From NCBI GenBank assembly GCA_003151615.1, contig PLXZ01000004.1, positions 1 to 46,117 of the forward strand: a stretch of DNA of 46,117 nucleotides. The letters run 5' to 3'. This document shows positions 1 to 32,717 of the stretch, in pieces (within the stretch, counting starts at the first letter, position 1; every line of letters begins with the position of its first letter). The stretch is from Candidatus Tayloriibacteriota bacterium (GTDB lineage: Bacteria; Patescibacteriota; Minisyncoccia; Phycocordibacterales; PALSA-1337). The notes under the pieces were generated by a model. The model ran no database searches and was not told the origin of the DNA. It was given only the letters and a program-made list of their open reading frames with translations. Both the position numbers and the translations under genes were made by a program.

Positions 1-135
1 CTCACCGCCCGTCAACTCAAGGGAGTTGGGAGTGCCCGAAGTCCGTCTTTATGGCGGCCTAAGGCAAGCTCAATGACAGGGAGTAAGTCGTAACAAGGCA
101 CGGGTAGCGGAAGCTGCTCGTGGATTATTTCAAAT
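1..135 (+). rRNA. rrs: 16S ribosomal RNA, 3' end (partial; helix 44/45 region)
   Basis: Contains CACCGCCCGTCA, AGTAAGTCGTAACAAGG and a helix-45 hairpin with GGAA loop (GGTAGCGGAAGCTGC), followed by GGAT. The CACCTCC tail is absent. The 3' boundary is approximate. Confidence 0.93.
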
Positions 136-370
136 TGATCAAACGATGTGCCCAGAATTTATTCTGAAGCCATCTTACCGAGTCGATTGTTTAGCATTCG
201 CAAGAGTGTTAAACCACAGTAATTGTTCTCAACTGCAAATGGAACACTCAGTCCGCGAGAGAAAGGACAAAGGAGGGTGCCACCTTAAGAGGCCCTCTCC
301 GGTGAACGGAACAAAATAAAGGATATTAAAGCAATAGCAAGCATAAGCAAAAACGGCGGAAATGCCGTCA

Positions 371-400
371 AAAAGTCATCCACAGGGGTGGCTTTTTGTT
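371..400 (+). terminator. Probable intrinsic terminator downstream of 16S
   Basis: Stem AGTCATCC-acag-GGGTGGCT followed by TTTTTGTTTT. Confidence 0.55.
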
Positions 401-429
401 TTATCGCGGTAAGGTGTTATAATTTTGTC

Positions 430-11212: not shown

Positions 11213-11326
11213 GCCGAAATCATCGCATACTGCCGATAGAGAAACGCTGAAGTTTTGCTAAAATAACGATAAAATTTCGCAAAGAAAACAATCGATGCCG
11301 ACAAAGAGCTGTGGTATAATAATTTC

Positions 11327-12457
11327 ATGGCTTTTTCCTTTACTTCATTGTTCGGTTCGAAAGACCAAAGCGTTCTCGGCATTGACGTCGGCTCGTCGTC
11401 GGTCAAAGTCGTCGAGATAAAAAAGAAGCGCGGCCGCGCGGTCCTGAAAACGTACGGGGAGCTCGCTCTCGGTCCGTATGCTTCGACCGAAGTGGGTCGC
11501 GCGACCAATCTTCCGCCGGACAAAATCGCCGAGGCGATAAAGGACATTCTCCGCGAAGCGAAAACGACCTCGACGGCCTGCGGCATCGCTTTGCCGTTTT
11601 CATCGAGTCTCATTTCATTCATCACCATTCCGCCGGTTCCCGAAAAACAATTGGCCGAAGTCATTCAGCTGGAAGCCCGCAAATACATTCCCGTTCCGAT
11701 GAACGAGGTTCTCCTCGACTGGTCGCTCATTCCGCGCGAGGACAATTATGCAAACGAAGAGGAAGATGATGACGGAAAAAGCGGCGCGAAGGAAAATAAA
11801 GGGGGTAAAGCCCAGCAGGACGTTTTGGTTGTCGCGATCCACAACGAATTTATCGCTTCGTACCAGCAGATCATGGCAAACTCCGGGCTTCAGCCGACCT
11901 TTTATGAAATAGAAATATTCAGCGCGATCCGCGCGGTCGTCGAGCAGGGCGTTCAGGCCGTCATGATCCTCGACATGGGCGCGCGCGCCACGAAACTCTA
12001 CATAGTTGAGCGCGGCATACTGCGTACGGCGCACATCATAAACAGGGGAGGCCAGGACATCACCCTCGCCGTTTCAAAATCGCTTTCCGTCACCGTTGCC
12101 GAAGCGGAGAACATGAAACGGCTGTACGGCCTGTCCGGCGGACCGGAACATAAAGACCTCGCCAATATAATCATGACCAACCTCGACTACATTTTTTACG
12201 AATCGAATGCGGCTCTTCTCAATTACCAGAAAAAGTACGGTAAAAATGTGGCAAAGGTCATCCTGACGGGCGGCGGCGTCCTGCTCAAAGGCTTTGCGGA
12301 CATAGCGAAAGTCAGTTTTCAGACCGATATTTTCTATGCAAATCCCTTTGGAAAGATGGAAACGCCGGCATTTTTCGAGCAGCAGCTTCGTGAGGCGGGT
12401 CCGGAATTCGCGGTCGCCATCGGCATTGCCTTGCGTCGCTTGTCGGAGACGCAATAG
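11327..12457 (+). CDS. pilM: Type IV pilus assembly protein PilM
   Basis: LGIDVGSSSVKVVEIKKKRG; actin-like fold motifs; followed by pilN/O-like genes. Confidence 0.92.
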   Translation: MAFSFTSLFGSKDQSVLGIDVGSSSVKVVEIKKKRGRAVLKTYGELALGPYASTEVGRATNLPPDKIAEAIKDILREAKTTSTACGIALPFSSSLISFITIPPVPEKQLAEVIQLEARKYIPVPMNEVLLDWSLIPREDNYANEEEDDDGKSGAKENKGGKAQQDVLVVAIHNEFIASYQQIMANSGLQPTFYEIEIFSAIRAVVEQGVQAVMILDMGARATKLYIVERGILRTAHIINRGGQDITLAVSKSLSVTVAEAENMKRLYGLSGGPEHKDLANIIMTNLDYIFYESNAALLNYQKKYGKNVAKVILTGGGVLLKGFADIAKVSFQTDIFYANPFGKMETPAFFEQQLREAGPEFAVAIGIALRRLSETQ

Positions 12458-31272: not shown

Positions 31273-31310
31273 TAAAAAATCCGATCACATTCATGTGATA
31301 TAATTGAAGC

Positions 31311-32717
31311 ATGAAGCGTTCCGCTTATGCTTTTTTTATTGCCTTTGTTTTCGTTCTCGCGCCTTTTCCTCTGCGTGCTGCGGTAATTACCGCTCCGACC
31401 GTTGATCCGTGCGCCGATACGACAAGCTATCTGCCAAATGAAACGACTGCCGCCCACCAGACTCGGCTCGAAACCGACTTGACCGGCTGTGAAGCGGAGG
31501 AAAGCCAGGCACAGAGCGCGTTGACTCAGGCTCAATCGCAATCTCAATCCCTGCAGAGCAATATCAATGTCCTGACCGCGCAGATAAAAGTCGCGCAATT
31601 GAATATTCAGGCCAAAAATCTTCTCATCGCGAGTCTCGGCAAGCAGATTTCGGACAAACAACAGACGGTACTCAGTCTGACTGCTCAGATCAATCAAGGG
31701 AAGGCGACTTTGGCCGAGTTGATTAGGAAAACGGACGAGCTCGACCAGGTGTCTTTGGCTGAAATACTTTTATCGGATGATACGCTGACGCAGGCATTGT
31801 CCGATTACGACAGTTTTTCCTCGCTGAATTCTGCGCTCCAGAGTACTGCGGCTGAATTGACTGACGAACAGACGCAGACCCAAAATGCAGAGGATGCTTT
31901 GACAGCCCAACAGAATCAGCAGGAGGATGCGCTCGCGACAATCCAGCAGGACGAGGCAACCGTCAAGCAGGCGCAGGCGGCGAAAACACAATTGCTGACT
32001 GTATCAAAAGGCAATGAGGCCGCGTATACAAAAATAGTCGCCCAGAAGGCCGCCAATGCCGCTTCGATCAAGGCCGCACTCTTCGCCCTCGCTGGAGGTT
32101 CGCAGGCAATTCAATTCGGACAGGCTTTGGCCTACGCGCAAATTGCATCGTCAAAAACGGGCGTAGCGCCGGCGTTTTTGCTGGCGATTCTGACCCAGGA
32201 AACGAATCTCGGCGCGAATGTCGGACAATGTTACGTGACAAATTTCAATACCGGTACGGGAATTTCGCTCAAAACAGGCTCGGCCGTTTCAAAAGTGATG
32301 AGCCCGACCCGAGACACCACTCCGTTTAGAACCATCACTGCGGCTCTTGGTCTCGACCCTCTCAAACAAGTCGTTTCGTGTCCGCAATCAGTCGGTTGGG
32401 GAGGGGCGATGGGACCGGCCCAGTTTATTCCTTCAACATGGACGCTTCTTGAAAATCGCATAGCCGGCGCACTCAGCGAACCGGTCGCCAATGTCAATCC
32501 ATGGAATCCGCAGGACGCATTTATGGCTTCTGCGCTGTATTTGAGCGATTTGGGAGCGGGGGCCGGCACCTACAGCAGTGAAAAAACGGCTGCTTGCAAA
32601 TATTATTCCGGCAAACCGTGCGGTTATGTGACCGGCTCAACGGCTTACGGAAACAGCGTATTGGCCTTAATGAACAGCATCCAGCTGAACAAGATTAACC
32701 CGCTGGAAGGTTTATAG
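31311..32717 (+). CDS. Secreted coiled-coil protein with lytic transglycosylase-like domain
   Basis: Signal peptide, CwlO-like coiled coil, then AFLLAILTQETNLGANVGQ...GAMGPAQFIPSTW...NPWNPQDAFMASALYLSDLGAG. Confidence 0.78.
   Translation: MKRSAYAFFIAFVFVLAPFPLRAAVITAPTVDPCADTTSYLPNETTAAHQTRLETDLTGCEAEESQAQSALTQAQSQSQSLQSNINVLTAQIKVAQLNIQAKNLLIASLGKQISDKQQTVLSLTAQINQGKATLAELIRKTDELDQVSLAEILLSDDTLTQALSDYDSFSSLNSALQSTAAELTDEQTQTQNAEDALTAQQNQQEDALATIQQDEATVKQAQAAKTQLLTVSKGNEAAYTKIVAQKAANAASIKAALFALAGGSQAIQFGQALAYAQIASSKTGVAPAFLLAILTQETNLGANVGQCYVTNFNTGTGISLKTGSAVSKVMSPTRDTTPFRTITAALGLDPLKQVVSCPQSVGWGGAMGPAQFIPSTWTLLENRIAGALSEPVANVNPWNPQDAFMASALYLSDLGAGAGTYSSEKTAACKYYSGKPCGYVTGSTAYGNSVLALMNSIQLNKINPLEGL

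Follow-up and report, generated by a model that had tools for sequence, protein, structure and literature searches.

Joint loss of the anti-Shine-Dalgarno (anti-SD) sequence of 16S rRNA and of Shine-Dalgarno (SD) motifs was described, in the available text of two surveys, in 15 and then in 128 taxa (PMC3522020, PMC6107228). A 2024 survey reports, in its available text, single Campbellbacteria, Wolfebacteria, Peribacter and SR1 genomes that are without CCUCC and scarce in SD motifs (PMC10783764). The SSU rRNA of mammalian mitochondria is also without an anti-SD (PMC10582724). Here we analysed the 3′ end of a 16S rRNA gene in which the anti-SD is replaced by a different sequence, and compared it with the order, class and phylum to which it belongs.

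The 16S rRNA tail in the window and in its relatives

The window, i.e. the whole stretch of DNA analysed (46,117 nt), comprises the opening 46 kb of contig C2 from G000, a genome of 0.92 Mb in five contigs (92% complete). A 16S search of the genome revealed a single 16S gene, broken across the end of contig C1, which holds its 5′ part, and the start of C2, where window positions 1–135 align to the Rfam bacterial SSU model from position 1386 to the model 3′ end. Model positions 754–1385 are missing between the two contig ends. The 16S genes of relatives carry large insertions, several genes being 1.9–2.9 kb long, so an insertion may have interrupted the assembly of G000 between C1 and C2. Downstream of the 16S, no 23S or 5S rRNA is found in the 46-kb window (1–46117); with a terminator-like hairpin at 369–398, the 16S appears to form a transcription unit of its own. 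Coordinates of all features are collected in Table 1.

Table 1. Features of the window, with position, strand and supporting evidence
Feature	Position	Strand	Evidence or remark
16S rRNA gene, 3′ end	1..135	+	RF00177 positions 1386-1533, 93.3 bits; C2 begins inside the gene
Helix 45, CACGGGTAGC-GGAA-GCTGCTCGTG, intact	99..122	+	10-pair stem, GGAA loop
Replaced 16S tail, GGATTATTTCAAATTGATC, without CCUCC	122..140	+	Conserved in the order as GGA-N-N-A-N-UUC-(A/C)-A...(U/G)GAA
CCUCC core positions (tail positions 7-11), here UUUCA	128..132	+	Anchored on helix 45; class tally
Candidate mini-hairpin UCA-AAU-UGA, tail and first trailer bases	130..138	+	Covariation
Pre-16S leader-trailer helix, 3′ strand (TGAACGGAACAAAATAAA)	303..320	+	18 perfect pairs with the leader on C1
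Terminator-like hairpin followed by a T run, probable end of the 16S transcript	369..398	+	About 1 expected by chance in shuffles
TATAAT at −12 of the ATG at 430, example of a predicted leaderless start right after the 16S unit	418..423	+	
TATAAT at −12 of the ORF at 11327	11315..11320	+	
TGATATAAT (extended −10) at −12 of the ORF at 31311	31299..31304	+	

Directly 3′ of helix 45, the window reads GGAUUAUUUCAAAUUG where GGAUCACCUCCUUUC is expected; the sequence replacing GGAUCACCUCCUUUC can also be written GGAUUAUUUCAAAUUGAUC, and bases 122–137 are GGATTATTTCAAATTG. The Rfam SSU alignment and the tail sequence bear out the claim of a first-pass annotation that helix 45 is intact and that the anti-SD is missing after it. 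Its further claim, that no CACCTCC follows as a possible 3′ exon, also holds, the stretch from 122 to 303 containing none; CCTCC is likewise absent from the interval that separates the tail from the leader-trailer helix, and absent within 320 nt of the AAGTCGTAACAAGG motif. An SD-like AAAGGAGG at ~269–276 was judged unimportant on inspection, being a part of the trailer that reads as a local hairpin (GGAGGGTGCC...GGCCCTCTCC). The two observations named in advance as contrary were not made: G000 contains no second or spliced 16S with CCUCC, and no assembly error is indicated at the tail, independent genomes carrying the same kind of tail. The anti-SD is truly absent from the only 16S rRNA of G000, a Parcubacterium.

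Full-length 16S sequences from the family and order of the window were collected by a 16S search of 60 relatives. Their tails mostly read GGA(A/T/G)(T/C)A(T/A)TTC(A/C)A, not CACCUCC, and the ~95 distinct tails of the order (which takes in Kaiser-, Nomura-, Zambryski- and Taylorbacteria, among others), among the matches listed, follow the common pattern GGA-N-N-A-N-UUC-(A/C). None of the order's own 16S tails has an intact CCUCC. One CCTCC match in G249 (contig C6: 263–305) lies on a second contig, follows an unlike helix 45 and probably represents contamination. A scan of GTDB genomes with the tail pattern matched at least 120 contigs; among the matches listed are contigs named Kaiser-, Nomura-, Zambryski-, Taylor-, Yonath- and Adlerbacteria, others with general Parcubacteria/Patescibacteria or 'uncultured bacterium' names, and one filed under a Bacteroidetes MAG. 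The closed genome G038, of the same order, has one 16S only, with the tail GGAACAUUUCAA. That relatives, named contigs and this closed genome share the tail indicates that anti-SD loss is a lineage trait. The altered tail is a conserved element of ~18 nt (122–139) rather than a mere absence of sequence, and, given its conservation across family and order, neither chance nor assembly error accounts for it.

Across the class, tail positions 7–11 were scored against CCUCC in 138 readable 16S tails from 234 genomes. The core is intact in 49, has one change in 19, two in 13 and three or more in 57 (89/138 altered), counted as genomes and not as independent events, and the changes are mostly C to T. 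Among the 67 families, 18 are wholly intact, 47 are without any intact copy and 2 are mixed. The mixed families and the differing end states argue for repeated erosion, and intermediate tails such as CAUCUCC, UUUCUCC and CAUUUCC likewise point to repeated erosion of the anti-SD within the class. At the level of the phylum, a canonical tail is found in 175 of 389 genomes, the remainder including genomes without an assembled 16S. The view that CCUCC is nearly universal in bacteria, which the annotation had taken as its starting point, therefore stands outside this group and is weaker in Parcubacteria.

Initiation signals and initiation factors

ORFs were called mechanically, 434 reliable ATG starts were kept for G000, and the start-site analysis in the order is based on G000, G038 and the named contigs. 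SD 4-mers (GGAG, GAGG, AGGA) occur at −18 to −4 of 6.2% of the starts of G000, compared with 9.0% in an upstream control, i.e. without enrichment, while the E. coli positive control reaches 72% when annotated starts are used and 63% when the starts come from the same caller. The lack of enrichment before the 434 starts supports, as regards the general mode of initiation, the earlier proposal that SD-based initiation cannot operate here.

Class members that keep CCUCC also make little use of SD motifs: their pool has 5.0% versus 7.5% in the control, and G538 has 10.8% versus 7.2%. This suggests an order of events in which SD independence probably preceded anti-SD loss. Because the intact-CCUCC pools are almost SD-free and their leaderless signal is weak, anti-SD loss does not map one-to-one onto SD use. 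Near-SD-free genomes with an intact anti-SD also raise the question of what conserves CCUCC there. In the pool of genomes that have lost the anti-SD outside the order ('lost_other'), SD 5-mers precede 6.5% of starts versus 1.7% in the control; in the same pool, AAGGAG occurs before 10 of 200 starts and once in a larger control region. An A-rich motif of AAAUAA type is present at −20 to −2 in all pools regardless of the 16S tail, a possible S1 or low-structure signal.

A −10-type box about 12 nt before the start codon is a signature used for calling leaderless genes (PMC3160421). In G000, 52 of the 434 starts have a TATAAT-like hexamer whose first base is at exactly −12, against a background of 2.5 per position. 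Starts with this box carry TG at −15/−14 in 60% of cases (8% otherwise) and a pyrimidine at −1 in 90%; the same holds for closed G038 and for the named contigs taken as a pool. Window examples are the ORFs at 430, 11327, 15804 and 31311. A mixture fit assigns 54% of starts to a leaderless-consistent class versus 20% in a control window, values inflated by A+T richness, and a conservative estimate of the leaderless excess is ~18% of reliable starts. The peak at −12, together with the extended TG, predicts that many mRNAs are leaderless. Judged from these promoter positions, the expected transcription start coincides with the A of AUG for a large share of genes, and we infer that the corresponding mRNAs begin at AUG.

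G000 encodes IF3 and a protein with several S1 domains. Era (TIGR00436 above cut-off) was not found in G000 (92% complete). Across the class, the Era search returned almost only GTPase-domain matches below the cut-off and one two-domain ORF, in accordance with PMC10582724; since nearly all class matches are of this sub-cut-off kind, Era cannot be used to look for a correlation with the state of the tail. Era binds GAUCA and CCUCC (PMC10582724), so that, with Era not found, one more constraint on the tail is removed. No bS21 match was obtained in a search of G000, and the weak bS21 matches in many class members are too faint to correlate.

Predicted pairing of the tail with the 16S trailer

The conservation of the tail in the order spans ~18 nt and then ends sharply, the remaining trailer being random. 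Specifically, tail positions 8–11 pair with bases at the start of the trailer. In phylum-mates whose tails are intact the pairs are mostly CUCC...GGAG-like, in the order they are UUCC...GGAA and UUCA...UGAA, and further versions in the class are AUCCU/AGGAU, CUCUUU/AAAGAG, AAUCU/AGAUU and UCUCU/AGAGA. With the central GA as anchor, 98 of 111 distinct sequences have a Watson-Crick inner pair (shuffles: mean 63, maximum 77 in 2000), and native tail-trailer pairing in the class exceeds that of between-family swaps (z 6.6, with 0/1000 swaps reaching native; z 4.9 when all CUCC-bearing tails are excluded), in controls that ignore part of the phylogeny. In the window the pairing is weaker (UCA/UGA, or GAUUA/UGAUC), and the alternative fold GAUUA(123–127)/UGAUC(136–140) is the predicted minimum in G000. 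Families f37, f210, f218 and f224 have an intact CCUCC without a complementary trailer, the reverse of the window's state. Since some intact-CCUCC families thus have no trailer partner, the hairpin is not universal.

These covariations suggest that pairing, not sequence, is kept as the anti-SD erodes. On the simplest reading, the anti-SD region would also supply an arm to a short hairpin that the precursor forms next to helix 45, and this hairpin is probably used in maturation of the 16S 3′ end.

A second pairing closes the precursor further out. The leader just 5′ of the 16S on C1 contains TTTATTTTGTTCCGTTCA, of which window positions 303–320 are the exact complement, and a GTTCCGTTC-type leader-trailer helix is present in most relatives checked. 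It closes ~180 nt past helix 45. A published criterion for a pre-16S leader-trailer helix is at least 17 pairs between leader and trailer, a number exceeded by the 18 pairs found here (PMC10250234).

Alternative readings and comparison with known systems

One alternative is that an intron or spacer parts helix 45 from a distal CCUCC exon and that the mature 16S is normal. The insertion-rich 16S genes of CPR, including the 1.9–2.9 kb genes of several relatives, speak for it, but no CCTCC lies inside the leader-trailer helix in the window or in 56 of 58 motif-bearing loci, the tail is constant in position and conserved in sequence, and the class contains single-step intermediates; we regard a hidden exon as extremely unlikely. 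An assembly or binning error at the contig edge, suggested by the fact that the window begins within the 16S near a contig end, is scarcely credible, because the same kind of tail occurs in many independent assemblies including closed G038 and because the downstream strand of the leader-trailer helix matches the leader on C1. It is also improbable, although less so, that the tail is functionless, lying outside the mature rRNA or drifting freely with descent alone behind its similarity. No strong constraint would be expected after SD loss, and the sequences of other lineages that have lost the anti-SD vary widely; against this stand the sharp boundary of conservation at ~18 nt in an otherwise random trailer and the compensatory pairs that recur in separate families.

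Two further alternatives would retain a role for the tail, or for another RNA, in mRNA pairing. The new tail could be an anti-SD retargeted to a new motif upstream of genes, in accordance with the enrichment before G000 genes of 5-mers complementary to its own tail (0.41 versus 0.20). However, enrichment of the same A/U motif is seen in all pools irrespective of their own tails, and in G038 (tail ACAUUUC) own-tail complementarity is unenriched (0.095 versus 0.126 in the control); this cross-tail control rules retargeting out as a working explanation, and we give it very little credence. SD pairing might instead be retained by a small regulatory gene set and supplied by another RNA or a truncated tail, since AGGAG-like motifs are kept at a few percent of starts. 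Such motifs are near background in G000 (0.032 versus 0.018), where no 16S with CCUCC was found, and we hold this arrangement to be most unlikely.

We are rather confident in a joint reading, in which the anti-SD is absent from G000 and its whole order as the end stage of a class-wide stepwise erosion, starts are predicted to be leaderless, and the tail is kept as a hairpin arm. Leaderless mRNAs would be bound via the 5′-terminal AUG and initiator tRNA, while operon-internal and leadered genes would rely on S1, on A-rich leaders with little structure and on coupling to the gene upstream. SD pairing is little informative in the class even where CCUCC persists, so selection on the anti-SD would have been relaxed. 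The tail would also serve, separately, as the 5′ arm in the short pre-16S hairpin adjoining helix 45, probably for 3′-end maturation, and this second job would explain why the replaced sequence stays conserved. With somewhat greater reserve, we favour a broader model in which the anti-SD stretch of Parcubacteria has two separable roles, mRNA pairing and the trailer hairpin: the first would have been lost many times independently once genes were leaderless or SD-free, and the second would have selected compensatory changes, giving the new conserved order-wide tail GGA-N-N-A-N-UUC(A/C)...(U/G)GAA.

The locus shares with the described non-anti-SD genomes (insect symbionts, haemotropic mycoplasmas and Flavobacteriia; Lim et al. 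2012, PMC3522020; Amin et al. 2018, PMC6107228), as far as the available text of these papers goes, an intact helix 45, the absence of CCUCC from every 16S copy, the absence of SD motifs and close relatives that are alike. The same portions of text name no Parcubacteria, whereas here the whole order and most sampled families of the class are affected, with a graded series and a conserved replacement (PMC3522020, PMC6107228). The CPR genomes of the 2024 survey represent the same phenomenon in the same large group, but are single genomes, and the available text reports no order-wide pattern, leaderless promoter peak or precursor hairpin (PMC10783764). A literature search of limited coverage returned nothing that joins the anti-Shine-Dalgarno with Patescibacteria, and nothing on class-wide loss. 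Anti-SD loss itself is thus already known. What appears to be new is how far it extends, together with the graded series, the promoter signature of leaderless starts and the covarying hairpin.

The anti-SD passes for a near-universal feature of bacteria, and gene finding, annotation of 16S ends and models of initiation make use of it. An order that does without it altogether, in a class where the steps of the loss can be seen, offers a natural experiment on the reasons for CCUCC conservation, and the state of the order separates mRNA pairing from rRNA maturation. It predicts leaderless-heavy translation for a group that ranks among the most abundant uncultured ones. Gene callers that rely on SD may place starts wrongly in such genomes, and in reporter or expression designs for Parcubacteria the promoter should directly abut the AUG.

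Mammalian mitochondrial messages start at or near AUG. The mitochondrion is an organelle with few messages and with ERAL1, whereas G000 is a bacterium with ~850 ORFs in which Era was not found. Leaderless-rich Actinobacteria and Deinococcus-Thermus retain the anti-SD, with SD serving their other genes, whereas here the anti-SD is gone. The leaderless genes of these two groups share with the present ones a TANNNT/TATAAT box ~12 nt before the start, often with TG (PMC3160421; PMC12340547). Bacteroidia share the unused SD signals and the A-rich leaders, but their anti-SD is kept and hidden by bS21/bS18/bS6 (PMC9976891), whereas in the window it is replaced, with UUUCA at the core.
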